Origin: an alpha proteobacterium AAP38
GTDB taxonomy: Bacteria; Pseudomonadota; Alphaproteobacteria; Azospirillales; Azospirillaceae
Length of the DNA stretch: 64,000 nt
Reading direction: 5' to 3'
Assembly (NCBI GenBank): GCA_001296005.1
Contig: LJHR01000015.1
Span: 124,001-188,000 of the forward strand
The first letter of the stretch is position 1; each line of letters opens with the position of its first letter. A model generated the notes under the pieces. That model did not search any database, was not told the origin of the DNA, and saw nothing but the letters and a program-made list of their open reading frames with translations. Made by a program: the position numbers and the translations under genes. Positions 39,235 through 62,006 of this stretch are shown here, piece by piece.

Positions 39235-41091
39235 TCAGGCTTTCTTGATCCAAGCCTCAACCTGTTCACCCAGCACATCCAACGGTACCGCCCCGGTGCG
39301 CAGCACCAGATCATGGAAGGCGCGCAGGTCGAACTTCGCCCCCAGCGCCTGTTTCGCCCGATCGCGCAGGTCCAGGATCTTCAGCATGCCGACATAATAG
39401 CTGGTGGCCTGACCGGGATTGACGATGTAGCGGTCGATCTCGCGGATCACCTGCTCCCGGTTCAGCGGTGTGTTGGCCACGAAATAATCGATGGCCTGTT
39501 CACGGGTCCAGCGCTTGGCATGGATGCCGCTATCCACGACCAGCCGCACGGCCCGCCAGACCTGTGTCGTCAGGCGACCGAAATCGGCGTAGGGGTCCTG
39601 GTAGAAGCCATATTCCTTGGGCAAGCGTTCGGCATACAGGCCCCAGCCCTCGATATAGGCGCCGAAGAAGCTGTAGCGCCGGAAATCCGGCACATCGCCC
39701 AGTTCCTGGGAAATGGCGATCTGCATGTGATGGCCGGGGATCGCCTCGTGATAGACGATGGCATCGGCCTGCCATTTCGCCATTTCCCGCATATTGGCGA
39801 GGTTGGCGTAGAAGATGCCGGGCCGCGATCCATCGGGCGAGGGCGGGTTATAGAAGGCCGGCGGGGCCGATTTCTCACGATAGGGTTCGACCCGCTTCAC
39901 GATGACGGGCGCCTTGGGCTTGGTGATGAACCATTCGTCCAGACGCTTGGAATAATCCGCGATCAGTTTCTCGCAATGGGCCAGATAGGCGGCACGGCCT
40001 TCCTCATCGCCATTGAAATAGAATTTCGGATCATTGCGCAGATGTTCGAAGAATTCCTGCAGGGTGCCATGGAATTCCACCTGCCGCATGATGCCCTGCA
40101 TATCCTTCTGCAGAAGCGCCACATGCTTCAGGCCCAGTTCGTGGATCTGATCCGGGCTCATGTCGGTGGTGGTGCTGTTCTTCACGCAGAACCGGTAATA
40201 GGCATCGCCATCCGGCAGCTTCCAGACACCATCATCATGAGTGGCCGCCGCCTCCAGCTTGGCTACGGCGGTGTCCAGCGCCTCATAGGCGGGCTTGACC
40301 TTGGTGGTCAGGATACGGGCGGCCTCGGCCACCAGCTTGTCCTTCTCACCCTGCGCGATGGACAGGGCGCCGACCTTCTTCTTGAAATCGGCATAAAGCG
40401 CGCTATCCGGGCCCTGGTCGAACGGGGCGCCGGTGATGACGGAGCGGATATCGGGCCGCATCTTGGCGAGCGAGAATTTGGGCGGCACCACGCCGCGCGC
40501 GGCCGCATCCTCCCCGCGCCGGATGACATTCTGGATGACGGCGGACACGCCGTTCAGACGCGCCAGATAGGCCCGCGCGTCGGAGACATCATCAATCCGG
40601 TGCTGATTGGCCAGGAAGCTGGGGATGCCGGTGTGCCGGCCATAGAGATGGTTGATCGGATAGCGGTGATTGCGCCAGCGATGCGCCTCGATCTCCGCCT
40701 CGCACTGCGCCTCGAACAGGCGGAAATTCAGCCGGTCGGTGGCGCCAAGCTGCCCGGCATCCCAACCCTGGCGCAGCATGTCCAGCGCCTGACGGGTGCG
40801 GGCAACGGATGCCTCGGCAAAGGCGTCGCTGCCATCATCCCAGCGGTCATAACCGGTCTTGCGACCGCGCTGCGTCTGGGTTTCGGGCGACAGGGACAGG
40901 TCGGCCTCATACACTTCTGCGAAGAAGGCGTGAAGGGCGGCAGCGTCCCCCTTGTTCTTCGGCTTGGCCGCATCGCTCAGCGACAGGGGGCCGGGCAGAC
41001 CCTGCGTAAAGGCGGGCAGCGGGGTGGCAGCAGCAAGCGCCAGACCGGCCGAACCGGCCAGCAACTGACGACGGGAAAGGCGGTGACGCAT
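39235..41091 (-). CDS. DUF885 family exported protein, paralogue 1
   Basis: This 618-residue protein starts at ATG 41091 (an in-frame ATG at 41106 adds five). A twin-arginine signal ([20 protein letters not shown]) predicts Tat export. Metalloprotease-like zinc motif [12 protein letters not shown] at about 448-459, with [15 protein letters not shown] supplying the glutamate ligand. DUF885 proteins are thought to be zinc carboxypeptidases or aminopeptidases, but most lack proven substrates. A paralogue lies at 54158-55996. It stands alone between the nucleosidase and the parS/dnaQ region. Confidence 0.88.
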
Positions 41092-41139
41092 GGATCGCTG
41101 TTCCATTCTTGTTATCGTGGGACGCTACAACCATACCCG

Positions 41140-41155
41140 TGTTTCACATGAAACA
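41140..41155. other. parS-like centromere site 1 (one mismatch)
   Basis: TGTTTCACATGAAACA differs from the bacterial parS consensus TGTTTCACGTGAAACA at one central position. It lies in an intergenic stretch about 4 kb left of the proposed origin. ParB binding is inferred. Confidence 0.7.
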
Positions 41156-43454: not shown

Positions 43455-44072
43455 TCAGGCCGGCAACAGCTTGCGCACGCGCAGGAAATCCAGCAGCGGC
43501 AGCAGTGGCAGACCCTGAATGGTGAAATGATCACCCTTCACCTTGTTGAACAACTGCGCGCCCAGCCCTTCCACCTGATATGAGCCGGCACAGGACAGAA
43601 CGGCATCACCGGCGGCATCCAGGTAACGGTCGATGAAGGCGTCAGACAGGGCGCGCATGGTCAGGGTGGCATGGTCGATATGGTGCCAGACGCGGGTGCC
43701 ATTATGGAACACGACCACAGCGGAATAGAGCGTGTGTGTGCGCCCCGACAGCAGGCGCAGATGGCTGGCGGCGTCGGCCCGGTCCACCGGCTTGTCGAAC
43801 CAGCGACCGTCGCATTCCAGCATCTGGTCGCCGCCTACGACATAGGCGCCAACATATTTGCGCGCCAGCTTGGAGGCTTTCAGATCAGCCAGCGCTTCCG
43901 CCACCTCCGGCGGCTTCATGCCGGCGGCCTTTCCGGACAGCTTGATCTCTTCCTCATCCACACGGGCCGCTTCGGCATGCACCTCTACCCCCGCTGCTTC
44001 CAGCATGCGGCGGCGTGAGGCGCTGGCAGAGGCCAGAATGATAGGTTCAGTCGTCAAAGAGGCCGGCCTCAT
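43455..44072 (-). CDS. maf: Maf-like nucleoside triphosphate pyrophosphatase
   Basis: This 205-residue protein hydrolyses non-canonical or methylated nucleotides in the Maf family. Motifs: ILASASASRRRMLEAAGV at the start (substrate loop), VVGGDQMLECDG, and DKPVDRADAASHLRLLSGRT. The presence of GDQ in place of ADTVV puts it in a Maf subfamily common in alphaproteobacteria, so nucleotide preference is uncertain. Its start overlaps the ppsR stop by four bases. Confidence 0.9.
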   Translation of the reverse strand: MRPASLTTEPIILASASASRRRMLEAAGVEVHAEAARVDEEEIKLSGKAAGMKPPEVAEALADLKASKLARKYVGAYVVGGDQMLECDGRWFDKPVDRADAASHLRLLSGRTHTLYSAVVVFHNGTRVWHHIDHATLTMRALSDAFIDRYLDAAGDAVLSCAGSYQVEGLGAQLFNKVKGDHFTIQGLPLLPLLDFLRVRKLLPA

Positions 44073-44965
44073 TCATCACCCTTGATACTGTCGATGGCCG
44101 CAGCCGCCTGTGGCCGGCGGCGGGCGAACAGCATCATCACCTCCGCCGCCGTTTCTTCGATCGACCGGCGGGAGACATCGATGACAGCCCAGCCCTTGCG
44201 CGTGAACAGGCGCCGGGCCTCCAGCAACTCCTCCCGCACGCGTTCGGGATCGGTGTAGGAGGTGTCGTCGCCCTGGTTCAGCAGTTTCAGACGGTTGCGC
44301 CGGATCTGTACCAGCCGTTCAGGGTCCTTGGTCAGACCCACGATCAGGGGTCGGGTCAGTTGATCCAGCTCCGGCGGCAGGGGGCAGCCGGGCACATAGG
44401 GGATATTGGCGGCCTTGATGCCGCGATTGGCCAGATAGATGCAGGTCGGCGTCTTCGATGTCCGGCTGACACCCACCAGGATCACGTCAGCATCATGCAG
44501 GCCCCAGGCGCTTTGCCCATCATCATGATTGAGGGCAAAATCCATGGCGTCGATGCGGCCAAAATATTCGGCGGTCAGGGCATGCTGGCGCCCCGGCTTC
44601 GACTGGCTCTGCAGGCCCAGATAATTACCCAGCGCATTGATCAGCGGGTCCAGGACGGAGATGCTGGGGATGCCCAGTTCCCGGCAGGTATCCTGCAGCT
44701 TATGGCGCAGTTTCTCATTCACCAGGGTGAACATCACCAGACCCGGATGCTCCCGGATACCTTCCAGCACCATGTCCAGCTGCCGTTCGGTGCGAACCAG
44801 ATTCCAGAAATGCTCGACCGGGTGCACCTGATCGAACTGGCTGACGCAGGCGCGGGCAACGGAATTAATCGTCTCCCCCGTCGCATCGGAAACCAGATGC
44901 AGGTGGAAGTTCCTGGGTACGGACGGTGGCTTGATATGGCCACCATGATGATCGCCGGGGTGCAT
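44069..44965 (-). CDS. ppsR: Pyruvate, phosphate dikinase / PEP synthase regulatory protein (DUF299)
   Basis: This bifunctional ADP-dependent kinase and phosphate-dependent phosphorylase switches PEP synthase or pyruvate phosphate dikinase off and on. From ATG 44965 it is 298 residues; the frame is open to 45052. FHLHLVSDATGETINSVARA opens the family domain and the P-loop GVSRTSKTPTCIYLA lies near residues 164-178. This gene is the classic left neighbour of the alphaproteobacterial origin (the Rickettsia RP001 homologue), with hemE on the right. It heads the operon ppsR-maf-aroE-coaE-dnaQ. Confidence 0.95.
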   Translation of the reverse strand: MHPGDHHGGHIKPPSVPRNFHLHLVSDATGETINSVARACVSQFDQVHPVEHFWNLVRTERQLDMVLEGIREHPGLVMFTLVNEKLRHKLQDTCRELGIPSISVLDPLINALGNYLGLQSQSKPGRQHALTAEYFGRIDAMDFALNHDDGQSAWGLHDADVILVGVSRTSKTPTCIYLANRGIKAANIPYVPGCPLPPELDQLTRPLIVGLTKDPERLVQIRRNRLKLLNQGDDTSYTDPERVREELLEARRLFTRKGWAVIDVSRRSIEETAAEVMMLFARRRPQAAAAIDSIKGDE

Positions 44966-45210
44966 CCTGTGGACCGCTCCTGGGGATATGTCGGGGACGG
45001 ATGTGCGTGAACGGGCACAAAAGGCGTAGCCGGGCTTTTCCATCCCTGGCAAGCCCGTACTTATCTGCCCTGCTGCCCGATCTGGGATTAACTCTGCTTG
45101 TTTGCCTGAGAATCAAGGACGAATCGGGTGGGCCAGATGGATTGTCCCCATATCGCAATGATCCCTGGGAAACCAGCATTTCCGCGCCTCTTGCAGCAAA
45201 CTCCATAAAG

Positions 45211-45219
45211 TTTTCCACA
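45211..45219 (+). other. DnaA box (TTTTCCACA)
   Basis: One mismatch from TTATCCACA and matching the relaxed TTWTNCACA form. First of the cluster in the proposed oriC. Confidence 0.6.
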
Positions 45220-45223
45220 ATTT

Positions 45224-45232
45224 TTTTCCACA
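45224..45232 (+). other. DnaA box (TTTTCCACA)
   Basis: Identical to the previous box, 13 bp further on in the same orientation. Confidence 0.6.
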
Positions 45233-45253
45233 CCCTGCGCGATGCACTCGGAT

Positions 45254-45262
45254 TGTGGACAA
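45254..45262 (-). other. DnaA box (TTGTCCACA)
   Basis: Reads TTGTCCACA on the minus strand, one mismatch from consensus, opposite in orientation to its neighbours. Confidence 0.55.
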
Positions 45263-45287
45263 AAATGCGGACAAATATGAATTCCCG

Positions 45288-45296
45288 TTATCCACA
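45288..45296 (+). other. Consensus DnaA box (TTATCCACA)
   Basis: Perfect match to the high-affinity DnaA box. Confidence 0.8.
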
Positions 45297-45399
45297 GGAC
45301 CCACTACCTCCTCAATCCTTTCTATAAAAAAGTTAAGTTTTAAGAGAGGGGTTGGGATAAGGTTTGGCACGCTCTGCATTCGTGACCTGGGTTGGATAC

Positions 45400-46464
45400 A
45401 TGACCGCTACCTCCGCCGTTCCGCAAAAGAAGATGCTGGCCGCGTTGGCCGGCGTGCCCCAGACGCCGCCGCCCTTCTGGCTGATGCGGCAGGCGGGGCG
45501 GTATCTGCCCGAATATAGGCAGGTGCGGACACAGGCCGGCGGCTTCCTGGACCTGTGCATGAACCCAGAGCTGGCTTGTGAAGTGACGCTGCAGCCGCTG
45601 CGCCGTTATGGCATGGATGCGGCCATTCTGTTCTCCGACATCCTGATCATCCCGCACGCTCTGGGACAGGGTCTGCGGTTCGCGGAAGGCGAAGGCCCGG
45701 TGCTGGACGCCATCCGGGACCAGCAGGGCCTGCTGAAGCTGGATCTGGACGGGCTTCACCGGAAAGCGGCACCCGTGTACGAGACGGTGTCACGCATTCG
45801 GGCCTCCCTGGATGAACGGACGGCCCTGATCGGGTTCGCCGGCTCGCCCTGGACCGTCGCCTGCTACATGGTTGAAGGGGGTGGATCGAAGGAATATGCG
45901 CATGTGAAGCGCTTCGCCTATACTGACCCTGTCGGCTTTAACCGGCTGATCGACATCCTGGTCGAAGCGACGGTTGAATATCTGTCGATGCAGATCAAGG
46001 CCGGCGCTGAACTGGTGCAGCTGTTTGACAGCTGGGCCGGTGCCCTGTCCGCCGCCGATTTCCAGCGCTTTGTCGTGGCCCCGACGCGGCGGATCACGGC
46101 GGCGCTGAAGGAACGGCATCCGGGTACGCCCATCATCGGCTTCCCCCGTATGGCCGGCCTGAACCTGGAAAGCTTTGTCGAGCAGGCGGGCGTCGACGCC
46201 GTGTCGCTGGACCCTGGTGTGCCGGCTGCCTGGGCCGCCCAGCACCTGCAGGGCAAGGTCGCTGTGCAGGGCAATCTGGACCCTGTCCTGCTGATCGCCG
46301 GTGGGGAGGAGATGGACCGCGCCGTCCTTGATCTGCTGGAAACTCTTGGCAACGGACCCTTCATTTTCAACTTGGGTCACGGGATTATCAAGGAAACACC
46401 GCCGGAAAACGTATCTCGTTTGGCTGGGTTGATCCGGGACTGGAAGCCTGTCACAAGGGATTGA
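45400..46464 (+). CDS. hemE: Uroporphyrinogen decarboxylase
   Basis: HemE converts uroporphyrinogen III to coproporphyrinogen III in haem synthesis. From ATG 45400 it is 354 residues; an open TTG start at 45364 would add 12. The PPFWLMRQAGRYLPEY signature with the substrate-binding Arg lies near residues 23-40, and IGFAGSPWTVACYMVEG follows as the second family signature. It is the right-hand neighbour of the origin in many alphaproteobacteria. A ferrochelatase-like gene follows 21 bp later. Confidence 0.96.
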   Translation: MTATSAVPQKKMLAALAGVPQTPPPFWLMRQAGRYLPEYRQVRTQAGGFLDLCMNPELACEVTLQPLRRYGMDAAILFSDILIIPHALGQGLRFAEGEGPVLDAIRDQQGLLKLDLDGLHRKAAPVYETVSRIRASLDERTALIGFAGSPWTVACYMVEGGGSKEYAHVKRFAYTDPVGFNRLIDILVEATVEYLSMQIKAGAELVQLFDSWAGALSAADFQRFVVAPTRRITAALKERHPGTPIIGFPRMAGLNLESFVEQAGVDAVSLDPGVPAAWAAQHLQGKVAVQGNLDPVLLIAGGEEMDRAVLDLLETLGNGPFIFNLGHGIIKETPPENVSRLAGLIRDWKPVTRD

Positions 46465-46485
46465 TTCCGCGATCCCACAATTTGT

Positions 46486-47520
46486 GTGCCGGTGGTGACA
46501 GCTTCCTTTCGGGACCGTATCGCCGTCGTTCTTATGCAGCCGGGCCAGCCGGCGGCAGATGGGCTGGTTTTGCCTTACCTGCAGGCCTTGCTGGCCGCGC
46601 AGCGACAGGACCCGCCCTCTCTGCCCATGCGGCCATTGCTGGGCCTGCGTGCGCGGCGGATGGCCCGGCATTTCCTCCTGGATGACCTGACCAGCCCGGC
46701 GGAAGATCCGATGGGTACGGAGTTGGAGAATGCCCTGTGGGGTGACGGGGTTGTGCGGGTCTTCACCGCCAGTCTGTTCGCGCCGCCATCACCCATCGCC
46801 ATCGCCCATGATGTTGCCGCCTTCCGGCCTGACCGTCTGGTCTTGCTGCCGCCATCGCCGCTGTTTTCCGGCGGTCTGAATGGCATCGCGCTGCAGGCCT
46901 GGGACCGTGCCGCCAAGGCGGCAGGGCTGGATGTCGTGGCCAGTACCCTATGCTGCCATCCCACCGACCCTGCCCTTTTGCGAACTCTGGTGACCCGTGC
47001 GCGGGAGGTCATGGTGCCGGGCGGGGCAGGATCGCTGCTGCTGGTCATGCCGGGGCTGGGCTGGTCCGGGGGTGATCCGCTGGGCTGGCAGATGGACCGC
47101 CTGGCGGCGGAGCTGTCGCGGTTACTGGAACTGCCTGCAGGCCGGGTTGATGTGGCACGGCTGGATGTGACGGGCTTTGATGATGCGGGCCTGCCGACAG
47201 TGGAACAGGCCATCCGGCGGACACGCTGCCCGGCCCTGTCCATCCTGCCTCTGTCGCCCTGGCCGCTGGTCCGCGCCGGCTGGGGCGATTATCTGGATGA
47301 ATGGCGGGATCTGGCCGCGGCATCGGGTATCCTGTCGCTGACCTTGGCCCGCCCGGCCCTGGCCGAAGGGGCTGATCTGGCGCCGCTGGTGCGTCAGGCC
47401 CTGGCGGGCCGTGCCGGTGTCTGTTCAGGTTTTGGACGGCGGCTTTGCCCCGATACTCATGGTCATTGCCCTCACAAGCGCATGGCGGTGGCTGCCATGC
47501 ATGGGCAGACCATGGCTTGA
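46486..47520 (+). CDS. Ferrochelatase-like protein, apparently non-catalytic
   Basis: This 344-residue protein has a GTG start at 46486; GTG 46492 or 46495 are alternatives and no ATG fits. The N-terminus DRIAVVLMQPGQPAADGLVL and PYLQALL resembles ferrochelatase (family pattern AVVLxNLGGP), and LDVVASTLCCHPTDPALLRT matches the SYYxHPxYIEAL region. Where HemH has FSFHGLP, this protein has LLLVMPGLGW, so the catalytic His is absent; near residues 259-273 the ETLEEI motif with the essential Glu is replaced by VRAGWGDYLDEW. Three C-terminal cysteines (CSGFGRRLCPDTHGHC) recall the cluster ligands of some ferrochelatases. It probably shares the hemE transcript. Function is unknown. Confidence 0.6.
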   Translation: MPVVTASFRDRIAVVLMQPGQPAADGLVLPYLQALLAAQRQDPPSLPMRPLLGLRARRMARHFLLDDLTSPAEDPMGTELENALWGDGVVRVFTASLFAPPSPIAIAHDVAAFRPDRLVLLPPSPLFSGGLNGIALQAWDRAAKAAGLDVVASTLCCHPTDPALLRTLVTRAREVMVPGGAGSLLLVMPGLGWSGGDPLGWQMDRLAAELSRLLELPAGRVDVARLDVTGFDDAGLPTVEQAIRRTRCPALSILPLSPWPLVRAGWGDYLDEWRDLAAASGILSLTLARPALAEGADLAPLVRQALAGRAGVCSGFGRRLCPDTHGHCPHKRMAVAAMHGQTMA

Positions 47521-47583
47521 TTATGCCGGGCTTTGGCCCCAAGTTCGGGGTAAGCCCCTGAGGCATGATCAGGATTATCACCG

Positions 47584-48138
47584 ATGTTCATTCAGACCGA
47601 AGACACCCCGAACCCGGCCACGCTGAAGTTTCTGCCTGGCCGCGATGTTCTGGGCACCGGTACCGCCGATTTCACCGACGCGACCGATGCCGCGGCTCGG
47701 TCGCCCCTGGCTGACAGGCTTTTCCAGGTTGATGGCGTGACGCGGGTTTTCCTGGCCGGTGATTTTGTCACTGTGACCAAGGATGACAGCCGCGACTGGT
47801 ATGTGATGAAGCCCGGTATCCTGGGCGCCATCATGGAACATTTCGCCACCGGCAAGCCCGTCTTGACCCAGGTCAAGGCGGACGACAATCAGGTGAACGA
47901 GGATGACGATGAGATCGTCGCCCAGATCAAGGAGCTGCTGGACGCCAAGGTGCGCCCGGCGGTGGCCCAGGATGGCGGCGACATAACGTTCCATGGTTTT
48001 GAGAACGGGGTCGTCTATCTGGCCATGAAGGGGGCCTGCGCCGGTTGCCCCAGCAGCACGGCGACCCTGAAGTCGGGCATCGAGAATATGCTTCGGTATT
48101 ACATTCCCGAGGTTGTCGAGGTGCAGCAAATCCGATAA
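47584..48138 (+). CDS. Iron-sulphur cluster scaffold/carrier NfuA-type protein
   Basis: This 184-residue protein has an N-terminal NFU domain (TEDTPNPATLKFLPGRDVL near residues 5-24) and a C-terminal NifU domain with C152 and C155 in GACAGCPSSTATLK. The two cysteines bridge a 4Fe-4S cluster between subunits for delivery to target enzymes. The length and order match alphaproteobacterial and mitochondrial NFU1. It follows the ferrochelatase-like gene by 63 bp on the same strand, in keeping with a haem/Fe-S theme. Confidence 0.93.
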   Translation: MFIQTEDTPNPATLKFLPGRDVLGTGTADFTDATDAAARSPLADRLFQVDGVTRVFLAGDFVTVTKDDSRDWYVMKPGILGAIMEHFATGKPVLTQVKADDNQVNEDDDEIVAQIKELLDAKVRPAVAQDGGDITFHGFENGVVYLAMKGACAGCPSSTATLKSGIENMLRYYIPEVVEVQQIR

Positions 48139-48453
48139 GGTTCCTTCTCCAACCTCGGAATTGCGCCTCAATTCGGTCGCAATGGGTTGGGATATGATGC
48201 GTGTACAGATGGCGTGCCGGGGGGTTGGGGCCCCTTTGCGGGGGAATTAGACCCCACCGGCATGATGCCCTGGCGGCGGTGCAACCCAGGAAGGGGCCGC
48301 CGCAGGGATTGCCTCTGACACTGTTAGGCCGGCCTTATTCAGGGCCAACGGCCAAAGTGCGGAGTTTGCTCCGGCAAAATGACGGACGCACGCCATGATG
48401 ATGTGGCGGCGATACCCGTCCTTTCGGCTTGGACTGTAAGGGATTGAAAAAAC
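48139..48453. other. Intergenic region without recognised features
   Basis: In 315 bp between the NFU and glucosaminidase genes I see only GC-rich imperfect inverted repeats (around 48220-48260) without a T-run; no gene, RNA or clear promoter. Confidence 0.5.
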
Positions 48454-49551
48454 ATGCTGACAGACGCGAACGAGGGCTTTGATAGCCCCCGCGCTACGGC
48501 TGCCCGCATATGGGGCATGTCCGCCCTGTTTCTGCTGCTCACCGTTATTCTGCCTTCCACCGTGTTCATCAGCGCTTCCAGCCGGTCCATGGACCGGACG
48601 GCGCGGGAATTCCTGCTGCCTGTGCTGCGCCCGGATCCGGGCTTCACGGTGGAGATGGCATCCGCCACGACGCGCCACGACCCGTCCTTCAAACTGGACG
48701 CCAAGGCCACGCTTGACCTGTTTCATTCCCGCGAATACCGGATCGAAGCGGTACGCAGCGGGGAAACGGCGGTGCCGCGTCTGGTTCTGACCGACCTTCC
48801 GACGGGTATGACCTCGTTGGAAAGCAGCGACGACCGCAAGGCGCTGTTCGTTAAGACCCTGCTGCCGCTGATCCTGATGGCCAATGAGCGTATTGAACAG
48901 GACCGCGAGCGGCTGCGCCGGCTGCATGCCGTGAAGCAGGGTGGCCAGGCTCTGGCACCGCAGGACCGACGCTGGCTGGCGGAGGTGGCTGTGCGCTATG
49001 GCTTGAATGCCGATGGCGAGATCAACACCAAGGCCCTGTTGCAGCGGGTGGATGTGGTGCCCGTCTCCCTGGCGCTGGCCCAGGCGGCGGAGGAGAGCGG
49101 CTGGGGTACCTCGCGCTTTGCCCAGAAGGGCAATGCGCTTTATGGGCAGCTGACCTTCAAGGCGGAGGATGAGGGGATCGTACCCCGTAACCGCCGGCAG
49201 GGCGAAACCCACCGCTTCAAATCCTTCGATGATCCGAAGGGAAGCGTGGAAAGCTATATCCATAACCTGAACACCCACCGTGCCTATGCCCAGTTCCGTC
49301 AGATGCGCGCCAGTCTGCGCACGCAGGACAAGCCCATTGACGGCTTGATGCTGGTCAATGCGCTGGGTGCCTATTCGGAGCGGGGGGAGGATTATGTCCG
49401 TACCATCCGTTCCCTGATCCGTGTCAATTCCCTGGCCGATTTTGACCGGGCGGTGTTGAGCGCGGATCAGATGGAAGAGGTGCTGGGCCCCCGCACGCGT
49501 GCCGAAATGGCCCGCGATCACGGGGTCGTTCCGGCCAGTCTTCGCCGGTAA
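48454..49551 (+). CDS. Glucosaminidase-domain (GH73, Bax-like) peptidoglycan hydrolase
   Basis: This 365-residue protein has an N-terminal membrane anchor or uncleaved signal near residues 18-42 (IWGMSALFLLLTVILPSTVF). The region from about 195 resembles the E. coli Bax/GH73 fold: VSLALAQAAEESGWGTSRFA with the catalytic Glu, then KGNALYGQLTF and a YIHNLNTHRAYAQFR helix. It probably cleaves peptidoglycan in the periplasm. It has no partner genes next to it. Confidence 0.88.
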   Translation: MLTDANEGFDSPRATAARIWGMSALFLLLTVILPSTVFISASSRSMDRTAREFLLPVLRPDPGFTVEMASATTRHDPSFKLDAKATLDLFHSREYRIEAVRSGETAVPRLVLTDLPTGMTSLESSDDRKALFVKTLLPLILMANERIEQDRERLRRLHAVKQGGQALAPQDRRWLAEVAVRYGLNADGEINTKALLQRVDVVPVSLALAQAAEESGWGTSRFAQKGNALYGQLTFKAEDEGIVPRNRRQGETHRFKSFDDPKGSVESYIHNLNTHRAYAQFRQMRASLRTQDKPIDGLMLVNALGAYSERGEDYVRTIRSLIRVNSLADFDRAVLSADQMEEVLGPRTRAEMARDHGVVPASLRR

Positions 49552-49653
49552 TCGCCTTTCGTCCCGTCCTATAGCGTCTTGTGGCTTGCCACTCATGCTG
49601 TGATGGCCGATATCACGGACATGAGTGGCCCGCATGCCAAAGGATTGTGACGA

Positions 49654-50241
49654 ATGAGCAACCCGCTTTCCGATACCGCGCTGGATCAGCTGTTCCGCAC
49701 GGCCCGTACCTTCAACAGCTTCACCGACAAGCTGGTCAGCAATGATACGCTGCGCCAGATCCATGATCTGCTGCGCTGGGGTCCGACCAGCGCCAATTGC
49801 TGCCCGCTGCGCATTGTTTTCCTGACGACGGCAGAAGCAAAGGAACGTCTGCGCCCGGCCCTGTCTGCCGGCAATCTGGCCAAGACCATGTCGGCGCCGG
49901 TGACGGCCATCCTGGCCTATGACACGCAGTTTGCTGAGCACCTGCCGCGTCTGTTCCCGCATGTTGATGCACGTCCCTGGTTCGCCAATCCCGAACTGGC
50001 GTTCGAGACTGCGTTCCGGAACAGCAGCCTGCAGGGTGCCTATTTCATGCTGGCGGCCCGTGCCGTGGGCCTGGATTGCGGCCCGATGTCCGGTTTCGAC
50101 CAGGGTAAGGTCAATGCCGAGTTCTTTGCCGATGGCCGCTTCAAGGTCAATTTCATCTGCAATCTGGGTTACGGTGATCCTGGAACCCTGTTTGACCGCA
50201 GCCCGCGGTTCGATTTCGAGGATGTCTGCCAGGTTCTGTGA
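49654..50241 (+). CDS. Nitroreductase-family protein (RutE/HadB type)
   Basis: This 195-residue FMN-dependent oxidoreductase has the start [20 protein letters not shown] and the FMN site [17 protein letters not shown], matching the malonic semialdehyde reductase (RutE) subgroup of nitroreductases. C-terminal [11 protein letters not shown] and [10 protein letters not shown] are conserved in the same group. No other rut (pyrimidine degradation) genes are nearby, so the true substrate is uncertain. It ends at a bidirectional terminator shared with ihfB. Confidence 0.88.
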
Positions 50242-50267
50242 ACCGGCTATACCCGGTGCAAAAACGA

Positions 50268-50303
50268 AAAACCCCGTCAGCCTGAATGGCTGACGGGGTT
50301 TTT
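50268..50303. terminator. Bidirectional terminator between nitroreductase and ihfB
   Basis: A 12-bp stem (50271-50282 with 50288-50299) has a 5-nt loop, with A-run to the left and TTT to the right, serving both convergent genes. Confidence 0.9.
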
Positions 50304-50325
50304 CATGCCCGGATATCGGGTCCGA

Positions 50326-50610
50326 TCATTCGTCGGTGTTCAGACGCTCACGCAGCTGCTTGCCGGTCTTGAAGAAAGGGATCACCTTCTCATCGACGTC
50401 AACGCTTTCGCCCGTGCGCGGGTTGCGGCCCGTGCGGGCATCGCGGCGCTTTACGGAAAAGGCACCGAAGCCGCGCAGCTCGACCCGGTCGCCGCGGGCA
50501 AGTGCCTCTGTGATCTCATCAAAGATCGTGGTGACGATCTTCTCCACGTCGCGCTGATAGAGATGCGGATTACGTTCGGCCAGTCGCTGGATCAGTTCCG
50601 ACTTGGTCAT
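50326..50610 (-). CDS. ihfB: Integration host factor beta subunit
   Basis: This small DNA-bending protein of 94 residues begins [20 protein letters not shown] and contains the beta-arm segment [20 protein letters not shown] with the intercalating proline. As IhfA/IhfB heterodimer it bends DNA at promoters and at origins; a partner ihfA is not in this window. It is 5 kb from the proposed oriC. The frame is open upstream, but homology starts at ATG 50610. Confidence 0.96.
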
Positions 50611-50895
50611 GCCTGTCAATCCCCCCTGGGACGTGGAGCCTTCCGGGACCCGACCTTCCGCCACCGACAGGCGGCCAAGCCGAAGGTCAGGGCCTGTGGC
50701 CACCTTGTTTACCAAGGGAAGATTGCCCCAGCCGGGCCGCCCGCGCAAGGGTAAGTCTTTCTGCGCAAACAGTTTTCTTGGAGATTCCCTACGACTTTGG
50801 GCAGAAGTGGCATAGAAGCCATGCCCCAAAGCCGGGTTGCAGGGCGGGATCGCCTGCCCAATATCAGCAGAGATATCGGTATCATCACGATACTG
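50611..50895. other. Intergenic region between ihfB and the riboswitch
   Basis: No gene is supported. The ihfB and sugE promoters should both lie here; a 5-bp inverted repeat GTATC-N5-GATAC sits at 50879-50893, just before the riboswitch. Confidence 0.4.
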
Positions 50896-50947
50896 GCCGC
50901 CGGGGACGACCCTGGCCGGATTTTAGATGATGGTGGGGACGACCCTT
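50896..50947 (+). promoter_or_regulatory. Guanidine-II (mini-ykkC) riboswitch
   Basis: Two hairpins, each GGGG-ACGA-CCC, at 50902-50912 and 50935-50945, about 20 nt apart, just ahead of the ribosome-binding site of sugE. Paired stem-loops with ACGR tetraloops are the defining feature of the mini-ykkC class, which senses guanidinium and usually controls exporters of this kind. The second hairpin ends about 10 nt before GGAG, so translational control is likely. Confidence 0.88.
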
Positions 50948-50966
50948 CCGCGATGGAGAATGCTCC

Positions 50967-51284
50967 ATGGCTTGGGTTTATCTGTTGTTCGCCGGCCTGT
51001 TCGAAATCGGCTTTGCCGTCGGTTTAAAGGCCAGCGACGGTTTCTCCCGTCCCCTTCCCACCCTTGTGACCCTTATCTGTCTGGGTATCAGCCTGTGGCT
51101 GCTGTCGCTGGCCATGCGCGGCCTGCCCCTGGGTACCGCCTATGCCGTCTGGACCGGGATCGGCAGTGCCGGTGCTGTGCTGGCCGGCATGACCATGGCC
51201 CGCGAAGGGTTCGATCCTGGCCGCATCTTCTGTGTTCTGCTGATCCTGGCCGGTGTGGCAGGGCTGAAAATCCTGGAAAAATAG
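50967..51284 (+). CDS. sugE: SMR-family guanidinium exporter (SugE/Gdx)
   Basis: This 105-residue inner-membrane protein has four transmembrane helices. The conserved glutamate is E13 in FAGLFEIGFAVGLK, and GTAYAVWTGIGSAGAVLAGM is the helix-3 signature of the SMR family. Members preceded by guanidine riboswitches export guanidinium in exchange for protons, and such a riboswitch lies directly upstream, so this is better named Gdx than a drug pump. GGAG is 8 nt before the ATG. It converges on a TetR gene. Confidence 0.95.
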   Translation: MAWVYLLFAGLFEIGFAVGLKASDGFSRPLPTLVTLICLGISLWLLSLAMRGLPLGTAYAVWTGIGSAGAVLAGMTMAREGFDPGRIFCVLLILAGVAGLKILEK

Positions 51285-51292
51285 CCCGGACT

Positions 51293-51955
51293 TCAGCCTG
51301 TCAGACCCCAATACTGCCGCATCAGTACCTTGAACTCCGTCAACAGCCGGACCTTAACGTCATTATCCTCGGCGCTGGGCGCAAAACGGCTGCTGGCGAG
51401 TGCCTGCAGGAACTGCCAGGCTAGGTGTCGCCCCATCTCGAACTTCACCGGATCGGCCACCAGGAAGGAGCCGTAAAGGTCCTTTGCCGTTTGTTCCCAG
51501 CGTGCGGCAAAGGCGGCCTTGGCCGGACCCATGATGGAGGCCAGTTCCGCATCGGTGCGGGCGGCGGCCTCCAACTCCTTCCACGCAGTCCAGAGCGGGC
51601 TGTGCGCGGCATGCCATAGCGCGTCGATGCCCTGATCCAGCCCTTCCCGCCCCTCATGCGCGACATTGGCCGTGGCGGCCAGATATTCCGCCGTGAAATG
51701 CTGGATGATGTGATCGACGGTGGCGCGCAGCACTTCCGGGGTCGTGGGGAAGTAATACTGCACCGCGCCCCGCGTCACCCGCGCCTGCTTGGCGATCTCT
51801 GACGTGGTGGTGCGATGGTACCCGATATCCAGAAAGCAACGGATGGCCGCCTCAATTATCCGCTGATGCGTGGCAATGCTTTTGGGCGTTTGCCTTACGC
51901 GGGAGCCTGCGGCTTCGCTGTCCAAATTCTTGGCGACCGTTGTCGTCATCGACAT
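51293..51955 (-). CDS. TetR-family transcriptional regulator
   Basis: From ATG 51955 this is a 220-residue protein; ATG 51976 and 51949 are in-frame alternatives. The helix-turn-helix is TTTSEIAKQARVTRGAVQYY, typical of TetR. The C-terminal helical domain should bind an unknown ligand. The gene converges on sugE and has no obvious target besides itself; the gene downstream of its start on the other strand is the SirB1 gene. Confidence 0.88.
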   Translation of the reverse strand: MSMTTTVAKNLDSEAAGSRVRQTPKSIATHQRIIEAAIRCFLDIGYHRTTTSEIAKQARVTRGAVQYYFPTTPEVLRATVDHIIQHFTAEYLAATANVAHEGREGLDQGIDALWHAAHSPLWTAWKELEAAARTDAELASIMGPAKAAFAARWEQTAKDLYGSFLVADPVKFEMGRHLAWQFLQALASSRFAPSAEDNDVKVRLLTEFKVLMRQYWGLTG

Positions 51956-52181
51956 CGTCTCTGTTCCAGAAACCATGGTTATTGGTTAACGCCCCTTAAC
52001 CTTATATCGGGACGAGCGTTTATCTACGGCGAATGCCCTTACCTGCGCAACATGGCAATGCGCCGGTCTGACCCGAGAGGGACGAAGAACAAATCGGACA
52101 GGCGTTCCTTCCCGCTCGACACCCCGCCCCTGGCTGCGCTATGGGAAGCGCGGTTGACCCCAGCAAGCGAGCCTCCCGCCC

Positions 52182-53021
52182 GTGACGCCGCGCCAACAGG
52201 CCCTGGACTATCTGCGCCGCCTCGGTGAGGCGGATGACAGTGATATTGACGTGGCGGAAGCGGCCCTGGCGCTGGCTGTTCTGGACCACCCCACCGATCT
52301 TACCCCCTATCGCGCCCATCTGGCCGCCTTGGGCGCCGATCTGGGCGCCCTGATGCGGAATGTGCCTGATGGACTGCCCGACCGTGTCACGGCTCTGGGC
52401 CGGCTGCTGGCGCAGCATGGCTATGCCGGCGACAGCGAAACCTATGAAGACTTGCAGAATGCCAACCTGATTCGCGTCATTGACCGGCGCCGGGGCCTGC
52501 CGGTCTCGCTTGGCATCCTGCTGATGTCGGCGGCGCGGGCTCAGGGTTGGGACATGCTGGGCCTGAACTTTCCGGGCCATTTCCTGCTGCGGCTGGACCA
52601 TGGTGGCGGGCGTCAGATCATCGATCCGTTCGACGGCGCTTCTCCGCGTGGTCCGCGCGAACTGCGTGATATGCTGAAGCAGACGGCGGGTCTGGAATCC
52701 GAATTGACACCCGATCATTACGCCCCGGTCTCGAACCGTGAGGTTCTTCTGCGCCTGCAGAACAATCTGAAGCTCCGCCACCTGTCGACGGATCAGCCCG
52801 ACAAGGCGCTGGCGGTCATTGAGGATATGCTGCTGTTCGCGCCCCAGCATATTGGCCTGTGGCGTGAATCCGGCCTGTTGAATGCCCATCTGGGCAAGCT
52901 GACGGCCGGCATCCAGGCCTTTGAGAATTTCCTGCGTATTGGTGAGGCACGCGGTGCCTCTCCCCAACTGCTGGACCATACGCGCAGCCTGCTGAAGCAG
53001 CTTCGGGGCCGTCTGAATTAA
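52182..53021 (+). CDS. SirB1/UPF0162 transglutaminase-like protein
   Basis: This 279-residue protein starts at GTG 52182; no earlier ATG fits. SETYEDLQNANLIRVIDRRR and LPVSLGILLMSAARAQGWDM are the hallmark of the SirB1 transglutaminase-like N-terminal domain, followed by a TPR-like C-terminal region (about 195-265) with repeated Leu/Ala helices. The usual catalytic cysteine of transglutaminases is missing from this domain, so enzymatic activity is doubtful. gshB starts 92 bp downstream on the same strand. Confidence 0.86.
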   Translation: MTPRQQALDYLRRLGEADDSDIDVAEAALALAVLDHPTDLTPYRAHLAALGADLGALMRNVPDGLPDRVTALGRLLAQHGYAGDSETYEDLQNANLIRVIDRRRGLPVSLGILLMSAARAQGWDMLGLNFPGHFLLRLDHGGGRQIIDPFDGASPRGPRELRDMLKQTAGLESELTPDHYAPVSNREVLLRLQNNLKLRHLSTDQPDKALAVIEDMLLFAPQHIGLWRESGLLNAHLGKLTAGIQAFENFLRIGEARGASPQLLDHTRSLLKQLRGRLN

Positions 53022-53113
53022 ACCCCTGCCCTGTGATGCGGCGCATGGCGTCGGCGCGGCGCTTATGCTTTCCTGCCGCCATCTTCCTTTCCGCTGGCCG
53101 GAGACAACCCGAC

Positions 53114-54064
53114 ATGACCCTGAAGGTCGCCATCCAGATGGACCCGATCGAGTCCATCAATATCGATACTGACAGTTCCTTCATGATGGCGCTGGAGGCG
53201 CAGCGCCGTGGCCATGCCCTGTGGCATTACCATCCGCGCGACCTGGCCCTGCGTGGCAACAAGTTGTTTGCCAAGGTGCGGCCCATGCAGGTGCGGCGCG
53301 AACGCGGTAATCATCACAGTATGGGTGCCGCAGAGGTGATCGACCTGTCGACCATGGATCTGGTGCTGATGCGCCAGGACCCGCCCTTCGACATGGCCTA
53401 TATCACCGCCACCCACCTGCTGGAACATATCCATCCAAAGACGCTGGTGGTGAATGACCCGGCTGCCGTCCGCAATGCGCCGGAAAAGCTGTTCGTCACG
53501 CATTTCCCCGACCTGATGCCCCCGACCGTCATCACCTCGTCGCGCGATGAGGTGTTGGCCGCGCGTGCGGAATGGAAGGACATTATCGTTAAGCCCTTGT
53601 TCGGCAACGGTGGTTCCGGTGTGTTTCACGTGAAACCGGATGATGAGAACCTGGGCGCGCTGCTGGAAACCTTCACCCAGCTCTATCGCGAGCCGATCAT
53701 CGTGCAGAAATACCTGCCGGAAATCCGCAAGGGCGATAAGCGCATCATCCTGATCGATGGCAAACCCGCCGGGGCCGTATCGCGCATCCCGCAAGATGGA
53801 GAGGCGCGGGCCAATTTCCATGCTGGCGGCAGTGCGGGCAAGACCGTGCTGACCAAGCGCGAGCAGGAAATTTGCGAGGCCATCGGCCCAACCCTACGTC
53901 AGCAGGGCCTGTTGTTCGTCGGGATCGATGTGATTGGTGACTATCTGACGGAGATCAATGTCACCAGCCCGACCGGTATTCAGGAGATCAACCGCCTGGA
54001 CGGTTCGGCCCTGGAAGCCACCCTCTGGGATGCGATGGAAATACGCTTCGCCGCCACACGGTGA
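53114..54064 (+). CDS. gshB: Glutathione synthetase
   Basis: GshB joins gamma-glutamylcysteine and glycine with ATP. From ATG 53114 it is 316 residues. The ATP-grasp segments IVKPLFGNGGSGVFHVKPDD near residues 157-176 and FVGIDVIGDYLTEINVTSPT are evident. GGAG lies 10 nt upstream; an open extension to 53033 has no homology. A parS-like site is written into the codons for VFHVKP at 53622-53637. Confidence 0.96.
   Translation: MTLKVAIQMDPIESINIDTDSSFMMALEAQRRGHALWHYHPRDLALRGNKLFAKVRPMQVRRERGNHHSMGAAEVIDLSTMDLVLMRQDPPFDMAYITATHLLEHIHPKTLVVNDPAAVRNAPEKLFVTHFPDLMPPTVITSSRDEVLAARAEWKDIIVKPLFGNGGSGVFHVKPDDENLGALLETFTQLYREPIIVQKYLPEIRKGDKRIILIDGKPAGAVSRIPQDGEARANFHAGGSAGKTVLTKREQEICEAIGPTLRQQGLLFVGIDVIGDYLTEINVTSPTGIQEINRLDGSALEATLWDAMEIRFAATR
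53622..53637. other. parS-like centromere site 2 (inside gshB)
   Basis: TGTTTCACGTGAAACC matches parS except for the last base. It lies within the coding sequence of gshB, about 8.4 kb right of the proposed origin. Confidence 0.75.
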
Positions 54065-54157
54065 AGCGCTTAGGGGCGCGGGCAATGGCCTGCGCCCCCT
54101 TGCCGTCCCACATCGCTTGCGCCACTCTTCCTTGCCTGAAGAACAAGGGGGTGGGTA

Positions 54158-55996
54158 ATGGGTGGAAGCGGCAATCAACCGGTCATCGGTCGCCGTGGCT
54201 TTTTCTGTTCCTGCTGCGGTCTGGCCGCCTGGAGCATAGCCGGCGGTATGTTGAGCGGGCCGGCGCAGGCCACCGGGACCGACCCGGCCCTGGACGCATT
54301 CTTTGCCGAATGCTTTGCCCGCCAGGCCGCAAAATCTCCGGAACTGCGTACCTCCCTGGGGCTTCCGGGTGATCAGGGGGCCTGGGACGATCTGTCTGAT
54401 GCTGCCCTGGCCGCCGATGACGCGGCCCTGCGGGCCAATCTTGCCACCCTGCGCCGTGACTTCCCCGATGCGAAACTGTCCGCCAATGGGCGGCTGAACA
54501 AGGCGCTGTGGGAATATCAGGCAGAGGCGAAGCTGGCGGCTGCGCGCTGGCGCGGGAATGACTACCCCGCCGACCATTTCAATGGCCGCCACAGTGAGAT
54601 CATCGACACCCTGACCACCTATCACCCGATCCGGGACAAGGTGGGGGCGCAGGCCTGGCTGGCGCGCGTGACCCGCATCGATCAGCCCGTTGATCAGTTG
54701 ATCCAGGCGCTGCAGGAACGTGCTGACAAGGGCGTGATCGCCCCGCGCTTTTCCATGGAGAAGGCGCTGGCGGCTACCCGCGCCGTGCTGACGGGCCGGC
54801 CCTTTGTGTCGGGTGAGGGGCAGGAGACGGCGCTGCTGGCCGGCTTCCGGCGCAAGGTGGAGGCACTGGACCTGCCGGCCGCCGACAAGGCGGCACTGGT
54901 GGCAGAGGCGGAGAACCTGCTCTCCGCCCGCTTTGCGCCCGCCTGGGCCCGTCTGGCCAGCGCCATGGAAGGCTTACTGGCCAAGGCCGATGATCGCGAC
55001 GGGGTGTGGAAGCTGCCCGATGGCAACGCCTATTATCAGCATTGCTTGTCCCGCCATACCACCCTGCCCCTGAAGGCCTCAGATGTTCATGTGCTGGGTC
55101 TAGCGGAGGTGAAGCGCATCCATGCAGAGATGGAAACGATCAAGGACAAGGTCGGCTTCAAGGGTGATCTTCAAGCCTTCAACCAGTTCCTGCGCACCGA
55201 CCGCCAGTTCTATTTCGCAGAGGATGATGCGGGCCGTGAGGCCTATATCAAGGGGGCCAATCTGATCCTGGATCGGGTCAAGGACGTGCTGGACGGGCAG
55301 TTCAACCTGAAGCCCAAGGCCCCGCTGGTGGTGCAGCGGTTTGAGCGCTACCGCGAAGCCAGTTCCACTATCGCTCGCTACAGCCAGCCGGCGACCGACG
55401 GGTCCCGCCCCGGCATCTATTATGTCAACCTGTCCAATATGAAGGAGATGCCGATCTGGCAGATGGAGGTTCTGGCCTTCCATGAAGGTATTCCCGGCCA
55501 CCATATGCAGATCGCCCTGGCGCAGGAGGTGACGGGCCTGCCGGACTTCCGCCGGCATGATTTCCACACCGCCTATGTCGAAGGATGGGGCCTTTATTCG
55601 GAACGGCTGCCCAAGGAGCTGGGTTTCTATGCCGATCCCTATTCCGATTTCGGGCGCCTGACCTTCTCCCTGTGGCGGGCGCTGCGTCTGGTCATGGATA
55701 CGGGCATCCATGCCAAGCATTGGACGCGGGCACAGGCCATCGACTATTTCGTGGCCAATTCCGCCTTCACGCGGGAGGTGGCGGAGCGGGAGGTTGACCG
55801 CTACATCGTCTATCCCGGCCAGGCCTGCGCCTATTATGTTGGCATGCAGAAGATACTGGAACTGCGGGAGCGGGCGAAGAAGCGGCTGGGCAGCCGCTTC
55901 GATATCAAACACTTCCACGATACCGTCCTGGGCAATGGGTCGGTACCTCTGACTGTACTGGAGCAGGTGGTGGAAGGCTGGATCAGGAGCGTGTGA
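54158..55996 (+). CDS. DUF885 family exported protein, paralogue 2
   Basis: This 612-residue protein is a close paralogue of the gene at 39235-41091. The signal region GRRGFFCSCCGLAAWSIAGG contains a twin arginine and three cysteines, unlike paralogue 1. The zinc motif [12 protein letters not shown] lies near 442-453, followed by YVEGWGLYSERLPKELGF. GGGGGTGGGTA precedes the ATG at 54158. It converges on qor, with the two stop codons adjacent and no spacer. Confidence 0.88.
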   Translation: MGGSGNQPVIGRRGFFCSCCGLAAWSIAGGMLSGPAQATGTDPALDAFFAECFARQAAKSPELRTSLGLPGDQGAWDDLSDAALAADDAALRANLATLRRDFPDAKLSANGRLNKALWEYQAEAKLAAARWRGNDYPADHFNGRHSEIIDTLTTYHPIRDKVGAQAWLARVTRIDQPVDQLIQALQERADKGVIAPRFSMEKALAATRAVLTGRPFVSGEGQETALLAGFRRKVEALDLPAADKAALVAEAENLLSARFAPAWARLASAMEGLLAKADDRDGVWKLPDGNAYYQHCLSRHTTLPLKASDVHVLGLAEVKRIHAEMETIKDKVGFKGDLQAFNQFLRTDRQFYFAEDDAGREAYIKGANLILDRVKDVLDGQFNLKPKAPLVVQRFERYREASSTIARYSQPATDGSRPGIYYVNLSNMKEMPIWQMEVLAFHEGIPGHHMQIALAQEVTGLPDFRRHDFHTAYVEGWGLYSERLPKELGFYADPYSDFGRLTFSLWRALRLVMDTGIHAKHWTRAQAIDYFVANSAFTREVAEREVDRYIVYPGQACAYYVGMQKILELRERAKKRLGSRFDIKHFHDTVLGNGSVPLTVLEQVVEGWIRSV

Positions 55997-56971
55997 TCAC
56001 GGGATCAGGACCGTCGCGCCGGTGGTTGCCCGTGCTTCCAGTGCGCGGTGGGCGTTGGCCACGTCGCGCAGGGCGAAACGCTGATTGACCTGCACCTTCA
56101 CTTGTCCTGCCTTCACCACGGCGAGCAGATCGTCCGCCATGGACACCAATTCGTCCCGTGTGCCGGCATAATGCTGTACCGATGGCCGGGTTAGGAACAG
56201 GCCGCCCTTGCGGTTCAACAGGCCGATATCAAAGGGCGGTACCGCACCGGAGGCGTTGCCATAGCTGACCATCAGGCCGCGTCGGCGCAGACAATCCAGA
56301 GAGCGGTCGAACGTATCCTTGCCGACACCGTCATAGACGACGTCAACGCCCTGCCCGCCCGTGACCTCCCGTACGCGGGCGACCACATCCTCGTCGCGAT
56401 AAAGGATGACATGGTGGCAGCCATTGGCGGTTGCCAACGCCGCCTTCTCCGCCGATCCCACCGTGCCGATGACGATGGCACCCAAGGCGTTTGCCCATTG
56501 GCAGGCAATGGAACCCACCCCGCCGGCGGCGGCATGGATCAGGACAATATCGCCCTGTTTCACGTGGAACGTCTGACGCAGAAGATACTGCGCCGTCAAG
56601 CCCTGCAGCAGCATGGAGGCTGCAACCTCATCACTGAGCCAGTCGGGCAGAAGGATCAGCTTGTCCGCCGGGATCAGCCGATGCTGGGCATAGGCACCCA
56701 GCGGCGATTGGCCATAACCGACCCGGTCGCCGGGTGCGAGGCCGGTCACCCCCTCGCCCACCGCTTCCACAATCCCCGCCCCCTCCATGCCCGGCGTGAA
56801 CGGTAGGGGGGCGGGATAAAGGCCGGTACGGAAATAGACGTCGATGAAGTTCAGGCCGATGGCGGTGTGCCGGATCAGTGCCTGGCCCAGCCCTGGCTTG
56901 CCGATCTGCACCTTCTGCCAGCGCAAAACCTCTGGCCCGCCCGTCTGTTCGACAAGGATGGCGTTCGTCAT
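55997..56971 (-). CDS. qor: NADPH:quinone oxidoreductase (zeta-crystallin type)
   Basis: This 324-residue MDR-superfamily reductase has no zinc ligands. The nucleotide-binding loop is IHAAAGGVGSIACQWANALG near residues 145-164 and the catalytic-region segment is GLNFIDVYFRTGLYP. It reduces quinones with NADPH. A parS-like site is embedded in the codons for TFHVKQ at 56556-56571. It abuts the DUF885 gene. Confidence 0.93.
   Translation of the reverse strand: MTNAILVEQTGGPEVLRWQKVQIGKPGLGQALIRHTAIGLNFIDVYFRTGLYPAPLPFTPGMEGAGIVEAVGEGVTGLAPGDRVGYGQSPLGAYAQHRLIPADKLILLPDWLSDEVAASMLLQGLTAQYLLRQTFHVKQGDIVLIHAAAGGVGSIACQWANALGAIVIGTVGSAEKAALATANGCHHVILYRDEDVVARVREVTGGQGVDVVYDGVGKDTFDRSLDCLRRRGLMVSYGNASGAVPPFDIGLLNRKGGLFLTRPSVQHYAGTRDELVSMADDLLAVVKAGQVKVQVNQRFALRDVANAHRALEARATTGATVLIP
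56556..56571. other. parS-like centromere site 3 (inside qor)
   Basis: The minus strand reads CGTTCCACGTGAAACA, one mismatch from the alternative parS consensus TGTTCCACGTGAAACA. It lies within qor, about 11.3 kb right of the origin candidate. Confidence 0.6.
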
Positions 56972-57030
56972 GATAGGACCTTGGAAATGGGGGGCCGGGA
57001 TGCGATGTGGCGCATCCCGGCGATGGGCAA

Positions 57031-57723
57031 TCAGCCCAGATGCTTCTTCAGGAACTCGGCAGAGCGGCCATGGGCCAGTTGCGCATCGCCATCATGGTAA
57101 TGCTTGCCGCCGATGCGCGTGAAGGCGTGGTCGCGTTCGGGATAGACATGGACCTCCACCAGGAAATTGCCGGCCACAGCCTCCTTGATGGCGTTCTGCG
57201 CCTCCGGTGGTACGAACCCGTCTTGACCCGCGATGTGCAGCAGCAGCGGCTTGGTGATGGCTGACACTTCCCCGATATCCTTGTCGATGCCGACCCCGTA
57301 ATAGGAGACGGAGGCATCGATATCGGTGCGCGTTGCCATCAGATAAGCCAGCTTGCCACCCAGGCAGAAACCGACGCAGCCGACCTTGCCCGTGACGCCG
57401 GGATACTGACGGATGAAGGACAGGGTGGTGGCCAGATCCTCCACCCCCTTCACCTCGTTGAAACCCTGATAGAGCTGAAACGCCTTTTGCCATTCGGCTT
57501 CGCTCTGATCGGTGATCTGCACGCCCGGTTCCTGCCGCCAGAACAGGTCGGGTGCGATAGCGAAATAGCCGGCGGCGGCATATTTGTCCGCAATGGCGCG
57601 CAGGTTGGCGTTAACGCCAAAAATTTCCTGGATGATGATCATGGCCGGGCCCTTGCCGCTGGCCGGGGCGGCCAGATAGGCGCCAAAGCTGCCATCGGAC
57701 GACTGGATCGAAACGTCGGGCAT
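57031..57723 (-). CDS. Dienelactone hydrolase family protein
   Basis: This 230-residue alpha/beta hydrolase starts at ATG 57723, with AAGGAT upstream. The nucleophile is C120 in VGFCLGGK, the acid D168 in GQDGFVPP and the histidine H199 in PERDHAF, close to the C123/D171/H202 triad of characterised dienelactone hydrolases. IIIQEIFGVNANLRAIAD carries the conserved Glu. Substrate unknown; no other ring-cleavage genes are near. The DUF255 gene lies 43 bp upstream on the same strand. Confidence 0.92.
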   Translation of the reverse strand: MPDVSIQSSDGSFGAYLAAPASGKGPAMIIIQEIFGVNANLRAIADKYAAAGYFAIAPDLFWRQEPGVQITDQSEAEWQKAFQLYQGFNEVKGVEDLATTLSFIRQYPGVTGKVGCVGFCLGGKLAYLMATRTDIDASVSYYGVGIDKDIGEVSAITKPLLLHIAGQDGFVPPEAQNAIKEAVAGNFLVEVHVYPERDHAFTRIGGKHYHDGDAQLAHGRSAEFLKKHLG

Positions 57724-57766
57724 CGGGATATCCTTCCTTGTAATCGACAGATGAAATGGAGCGGGA

Positions 57767-59821: not shown

Positions 59822-59953
59822 GTCTCATCCTTTGCCGGGTCCGCCCATCATGACGCCAATCCATGACGGGCCTGTGAAGAACAGATAGTTTATCCTTGTG
59901 TCAAACCCAGGGTACGGGAAAAATCGCGCCAGATCAGAGGGAGGCCGGAAGCC

Positions 59954-60603: not shown

Positions 60604-60619
60604 TGTTTCACGTGAAACA
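60604..60619. other. Consensus parS centromere site 4
   Basis: TGTTTCACGTGAAACA is a perfect 16-bp parS palindrome in the short gap before mnmE, about 15.3 kb right of the proposed origin. Confidence 0.9.
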
Positions 60620-60625
60620 CGCTTG

Positions 60626-61945: not shown

Positions 61946-62006
61946 CGGTGCCCCATGCGCCCCTGCCCTTTGACTAGAGCGCCGCGCGCGCTTATCTTCC
62001 CGCCCC

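Follow-up and report, generated by a model that had tools for sequence, protein, structure and literature searches.

The 434-bp gap between the divergent genes ppsR and hemE is predicted to be the DnaA-dependent replication origin (oriC) of the main chromosome in the alphaproteobacterium analysed here, a reading to which we assign a probability of about 0.94. A cluster of DnaA boxes, a local AT peak, conservation among relatives, a nearby minimum of cumulative GC skew and a surrounding group of parS sites are all directly observed at this place. A preliminary description, made from the same DNA, had proposed a replication origin between ppsR and hemE, and the proposal is supported by the box cluster, by the skew of both the contig and the closest near-complete relative, by the parS sites and by the recurrence of the same layout in related genomes.

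Locus and genome setting

The window, meaning the whole stretch of 64,000 nucleotides analysed, corresponds to positions 124001–188000 of a 306,484-bp contig (here C7) in an assembly of 62 contigs and 5.78 Mb. Its host is a Niveispirillum; among the matches listed, the hemE of a metagenome-assembled Niveispirillum shows 100% identity, while the figure is 96% for a metagenome-assembled genome labelled Azospirillum sp. and 79–82% for N. irakense and Niveispirillum sp. SYP-B3756. The genes on both sides are read away from the gap, ppsR to the left and hemE to the right (Table 1), as had been noted before, and we equate ppsR with COG1806. The gene downstream of hemE, at 46486–47517 (+), gives a weak ferrochelatase match (30.4 bits, cut-off 27), and 5 kb from the putative origin, at 50329–50829 (-), there is a gene for an HU/IHF-type DNA-binding protein (PF00216).

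Table 1. Features of the putative origin region, in window coordinates.
Feature	Position	Strand	Basis or remark
parS-like site, 1 mismatch	41141–41154		motif scan of assembly
ppsR	44069–44965	-	start codon, appearing as CAT, at 44963–44965; NF003742, 349 bits, cut-off 225
Putative oriC, gap between divergent ppsR and hemE	44966–45399		boxes, skew, conservation, gene pair
Two GANTC (CcrM-type) sites, 45110–45114 and 45121–45125	45110–45125
DnaA box TTTTCCACA, 1 mismatch	45211–45219	+	first of tandem pair
DnaA box TTTTCCACA, 1 mismatch	45224–45232	+	second of tandem pair
DnaA box TTGTCCACA, 1 mismatch	45254–45262	-	left arm of conserved inverted pair
DnaA box TTATCCACA, perfect	45288–45296	+	right arm of conserved inverted pair; core of CCGTTATCCACAGG
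Most AT-rich 30 bases of gap, putative unwinding element	45314–45343		AT 0.83
hemE	45400–46464	+	ATG at 45400; TIGR01464, 409 bits, cut-off 303
parS site	53623–53636		motif scan of assembly
parS site GTTTCACGTGGAAC	56557–56570		motif scan of assembly
parS site	60605–60618		motif scan of assembly
parS site	63964–63977		motif scan of assembly

The putative origin is new for this genome and of a known kind, ordinary but well supported. In the available text of PMC1914354, which cites Brassinga et al., the gap between hemE and COG1806 is given as the origin in Caulobacter and Rickettsia, in agreement with the preliminary description, which had named this gene pair as the known oriC context of the two genera. 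According to the same portion of that paper, Caulobacter crescentus Cori and the Rickettsia prowazekii oriC share with the window the flanking genes, a gap of more than 400 bp and several DnaA boxes.

DnaA boxes and an AT-rich element

Recomputing the positions returned one perfect and three one-mismatch DnaA boxes within 86 bp, exactly as had been claimed. Across the window as a whole the number of boxes is at chance level (16 found, 16.67 expected), so the case rests on their clustering and context rather than on their total. Four boxes within 440 bp occur in the window at this cluster alone, nowhere in the other 242 kb of C7, and nowhere in 800 kb of sequence taken from G006, the closest near-complete relative (40 stretches, its own gap and dnaA excluded), leaving the cluster unmatched across 1.04 Mb sampled. 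The tandem arrangement TTWTCCACA-N1-20-TTWTCCACA has a single occurrence in the entire 5.78-Mb assembly, which is the hemE-ppsR gap.

The boxes were also said to lie in an AT-rich stretch, and the AT content of the gap is indeed 0.49 against 0.37 in the window, the window and not the whole-genome average being the term of comparison. The AT content of the richest 30 bases is reached by only 0.016% of the window's 30-mers, and because this element adjoins the last DnaA box we assign it a putative role in unwinding. Scanning for IHF sites, with no chance control, gave 45323–45335 with one mismatch and 45111 with two.

In the mechanism that we infer for DnaA binding, opening, firing and segregation, DnaA would bind the tandem and the inverted pair of boxes, and the resulting complex would open the AT-rich element lying between the last box and hemE. 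Helicase would then be loaded at the opened element and two forks would leave in opposite directions, after which ParB on the nearby parS sites may help to separate the new origins.

Conservation among relatives

We compared 111 hemE loci, made up of the window's own gap, the 30 best of 53 matching genomes and the best 80 of a longer list; these are near relatives by selection, and some genomes entered twice. A divergent ppsR stands beside hemE in 106 of these near-relative loci, and five with no ppsR in the fetched stretch (L090, L092, L093, L097 and L106) were left out. The 106 gaps reduce to 94 distinct ones. Among 19 more distant members of the class, ppsR adjoins hemE in nine; for the ten in which no ppsR was found, the 450 bp upstream of hemE were used (11 bases for L247).

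An excess of DnaA boxes (p ≤0.05, 60 Markov shuffles for each gap) is present in 83 of the 94 distinct gaps, with no significant excess in the remaining 11. The inverted pair TGTGGA...TCCACA recurs with a spacing of 36 bp in 32 gaps, of 37 bp in 13 and of 35 bp in six, a total of 51 over the 94 distinct gaps, the next commonest spacing being found in five. The core CCGTTATCCACAGG has 19 occurrences spread over 18 of 59 genomes, of which 14 fall in the hemE gap, and G006 carries a one-base variant of it upstream of the box that was not counted. The alignment of gaps from related genomes, proposed earlier as a check, thus finds the box layout recurring in the hemE-ppsR gaps of relatives. The putative origins of Azospirillum, Nitrospirillum and other relatives occupy the same gap, many with the inverted box pair at 35–37 bp, and those of many Azospirillaceae share the CCGTTATCCACAGG core, often with an AT-rich stretch after it. 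They differ from the window in their GANTC sites, which number from 0 to 12 per gap and 2 in the window's.

A DnaA-trio element in the window's gap was considered and rejected. The BUS rule, as set out in the accessible passages of PMC8287927, asks for a DnaA box, a spacer and at least three DnaA-trios. Taken as a run of three or more NAN units that begins no further than 16 bp from a box, the trio element is absent from the window's gap, which offers at most two units on either strand. In the 75 gaps, out of 94, that carry a plus-strand box near hemE, such runs are slightly above chance overall (complement, 27 of 75 against 19.0 expected; top strand, 28 of 75 against 22.6).

GC skew and sequence polarity

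On C7 the cumulative GC skew reaches its minimum at window position 44239, inside ppsR and about 1 kb from the first box, the mean skew being -0.023 to the left of the minimum and +0.005 to the right. Negative (C-rich) skew is found in 27 of 34 5-kb blocks to the left of a cut at 170 kb, chosen at the skew minimum, and in 10 of 27 to the right. Coding strands are balanced on both sides (0.50 of coding bases on the plus strand to the left and 0.46 to the right, from crude gene calls), and gene strand therefore does not explain the change. Detrending moves the minimum from 169 kb to 120 kb, 49 kb off, which we counted against an origin at the gap.

G006, whose hemE is 99% identical to that of the window, provides a 3.40-Mb contig, which was read in 40 stretches of 20 kb; two sign changes of skew were fitted to 160 pieces of these. 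The best-fit origin falls at 2,590,000–2,595,000, with hemE starting at 2,592,393 and dnaA lying 238 kb away at 2,354,440, and of 60 resamplings 42 place the origin no more than 150 kb from hemE. The fitted terminus is less well placed than the fitted origin: it lies at about 0.765 Mb, and the point opposite to it, 2.464 Mb, falls between the two genes, 110 kb past dnaA and 128 kb short of hemE. The skew check suggested with the preliminary description was thus run in part and passed, the minimum lying at the gap both on C7 and in G006. In three further relatives (G031, G017 and G012), with 20 stretches read from each, skew is too weak or irregular for an origin to be placed, with 2, 0 and 16 of 60 resamplings, respectively, within 150 kb of hemE, and 3, 0 and 13 near dnaA. 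An origin at hemE is therefore unsupported by skew in G031 and G017 and weakly supported in G012, and these fits were counted against the generality of the skew evidence. GC skew is called insufficient for finding the origin in several alphaproteobacteria in the portion of PMC1914354 available.

The polarity of GGGNAGGG, a KOPS-like motif of putative role in this group, was considered as a marker of the origin and dropped, as it shows no turn at the gap. In favour of the gap, it does flip near the expected terminus of G006 (at 0.92–0.975 Mb, where the position opposite the gap is 0.893 Mb). On C7 it turns at about 210–230 kb (about 86–106 kb in window numbering), 40–60 kb to the right of the gap, and further turns lie at 2.25–2.55 Mb on contig C1 of G006, where the range is ill-defined, and at 59–150 kb on contig C1 of G031. 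In all three cases the turn lies on the parS/mnmG side and tens of kb off the hemE gap, on small counts. Along with the skew results named above, we weighed against the gap this displaced turn on C7, the offset terminus of G006, the 11 gaps with no significant box excess, the DnaA-trio result, the presence of an adjoining ppsR in nine of the 19 distant class members, and the division of the assembly into 62 contigs.

parS sites and gene order around the putative origin

All five matches to parS with no more than one mismatch in the 5.78-Mb assembly lie inside the window (41141–63977) and within 19 kb of the gap. Among the matches listed for relatives, which do not include G012, G017, G043 and G046, the five sites of G006 with at most one mismatch are likewise all within 19 kb of hemE and the four of G022 within 17 kb; outliers are one of three sites in G001, at 60 kb, and one of six in G021, at 89 kb.

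Within the window mnmE is found at 60623 and mnmG at 62007. When 44966–63872 of the window is compared with relatives, the latter gene is found on the side of hemE in G000, G006, G009 and G017 and on that of ppsR in the other nine of 13 genomes, and reads away from the origin in all 13. The side on which mnmG stands suggests that a small inversion around the origin may have taken place in the Niveispirillum clade of the window. Two DUF885 paralogues flank the origin in opposite orientation, at 39235–41106 (-) and 54158–55996 (+), their proteins being 49% identical and their DNA arms up to 79% complementary; a link between this pair and the inversion is a guess.

Alternative readings of the gap

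Many bacteria initiate replication at dnaA, and were this the case here the hemE-ppsR gap would be a relic or a DnaA-controlled promoter region. Upstream of the dnaA AAA+ match, the window's own genome indeed has three DnaA boxes within about 290 bp and G006 has three within about 150 bp, with none within 1.3 kb in G012, and the KOPS-like turn range of G006 includes dnaA at 2.354 Mb. Boxes in that position commonly serve autoregulation, however, which we counted against an origin at dnaA. GC skew is negative in each of the two stretches of G006 that flank dnaA (2.325 and 2.400 Mb), the sign changing at hemE instead, one resampling in 60 places the origin within 150 kb of dnaA, and in both the window's genome and G006 the best parS sites cluster at hemE and not at dnaA. 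An active origin at dnaA was rejected on skew and parS, and we consider it very improbable.

We give even less credence to the boxes being a DnaA-responsive promoter array for hemE and ppsR, or a site of DnaA titration, with no origin present. The layout of the gap is that of a divergent promoter region, as such a reading would have it, but the skew minimum, the parS cluster and the AT-rich element by the last box would then go unexplained. A DnaA-dependent oriC in the gap thus remains our preferred reading.

CtrA sites and GANTC motifs

Five CtrA sites are reported for Caulobacter Cori in the available parts of PMC1914354 and PMC8959179, whereas the window's gap holds no TTAA-N7-TTAA with up to one mismatch, in keeping with the earlier remark that no CtrA-type site is evident. 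The 94 distinct gaps together contain one exact site (0.9 expected) and ten near-sites (18.5 expected), and in a scan of the 19 more distant members, made without a named positive control, L231 is the sole one with a TTAA-N7-TTAA upstream of hemE. That cell-cycle control may differ from Caulobacter, as was further suggested, is a reasonable remark, though given these counts it does not single out this genome: the absence of CtrA sites is common to the relatives compared and not peculiar to the genome of the window.

The genome nevertheless encodes an orthologue of CtrA (412.6 bits, cut-off 350, NF045991) along with GcrA, ChpT and a RAMA-domain protein of the CcrM type. The RAMA domain marks CcrM, and among 14 control genomes it is matched only in Caulobacter. 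In two Rhodospirillales studied, the accessible portion of PMC8116508 describes loss of ctrA as having no negative effect on growth or viability, and raises the idea that motility may be the older role of CtrA. There are some clues that on/off control of the origin differs from the textbook case, and we infer that it may rest on DnaA, perhaps with CcrM/GcrA, rather than on origin-bound CtrA.

GANTC, the CcrM-type motif, is striking only in comparison across relatives. The window's own gap was rejected as a striking cluster, having two sites and being one of five such stretches with at least two among 68 intergenic stretches of at least 150 bp on C7; in alignments these sites are kept in L007, L011 and L012, with N changed, and lost wholly or partly in L013 and L019. 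The 94 gaps contain 392 GANTC sites against 190.6 expected (sd 12.7), although the gaps share descent and their counts are not independent, and at least one site is present in 89 of them. Of four control five-base palindromes built like GANTC, three fall below expectation and AGNCT exceeds it (124 against 86). GANTC density is 9.4 per kb in the 94 gaps and 1.5 in their flanks, with 87 gaps above their own flank; on C7 the motif is denser between genes generally (1.12 against 0.39 per kb). The gap of G030, an Azospirillum, has 11 sites within 450 bp, the maximum elsewhere in 340 kb being five. Dense clusters of 11–12 sites per gap, some spaced 7–12 bp, are seen in L047, L044, L020, L069 and other relatives.

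One tentative and rather doubtful reading of this enrichment is that in Azospirillaceae and related Rhodospirillales oriC acts as an epigenetic switch, in which GANTC clusters (up to 12 in about 0.5 kb) would allow initiation to be timed or limited by CcrM methylation, with GcrA perhaps as its reader, instead of by Caulobacter's CtrA block. Several GANTC motifs are known in origins, "C." species being named, in the available part of PMC3973325, and the accessible text of PMC11514494 reports that in Agrobacterium CcrM promotes replication from the RepC-dependent ori2 and has little effect on the DnaA-dependent ori1; together these two accounts led us to lower our estimate that methylation controls initiation here. 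Titles and abstract openings yielded no publication on GANTC at origins in this group. The E. coli oriC, whose mechanism involving GATC and SeqA is treated in the portion of PMC10225481 available, is similar in that a methylation motif is enriched in the origins of many relatives, GANTC standing for GATC, and differs in enzyme and motif; the window's own gap, moreover, has just two GANTC sites. Were the switch real, a Dam/SeqA-like solution would have been reached with another enzyme, and the origin in the window, where two GANTC sites are conserved, would represent a reduced form of it.

The predicted origin and its box layout in this Niveispirillum offer a template for relatives such as Azospirillum. 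The relatives examined retain the hemE/ppsR origin with CtrA sites in no surplus and GANTC strongly enriched, and what replaces CtrA at the origin becomes a directly testable question.
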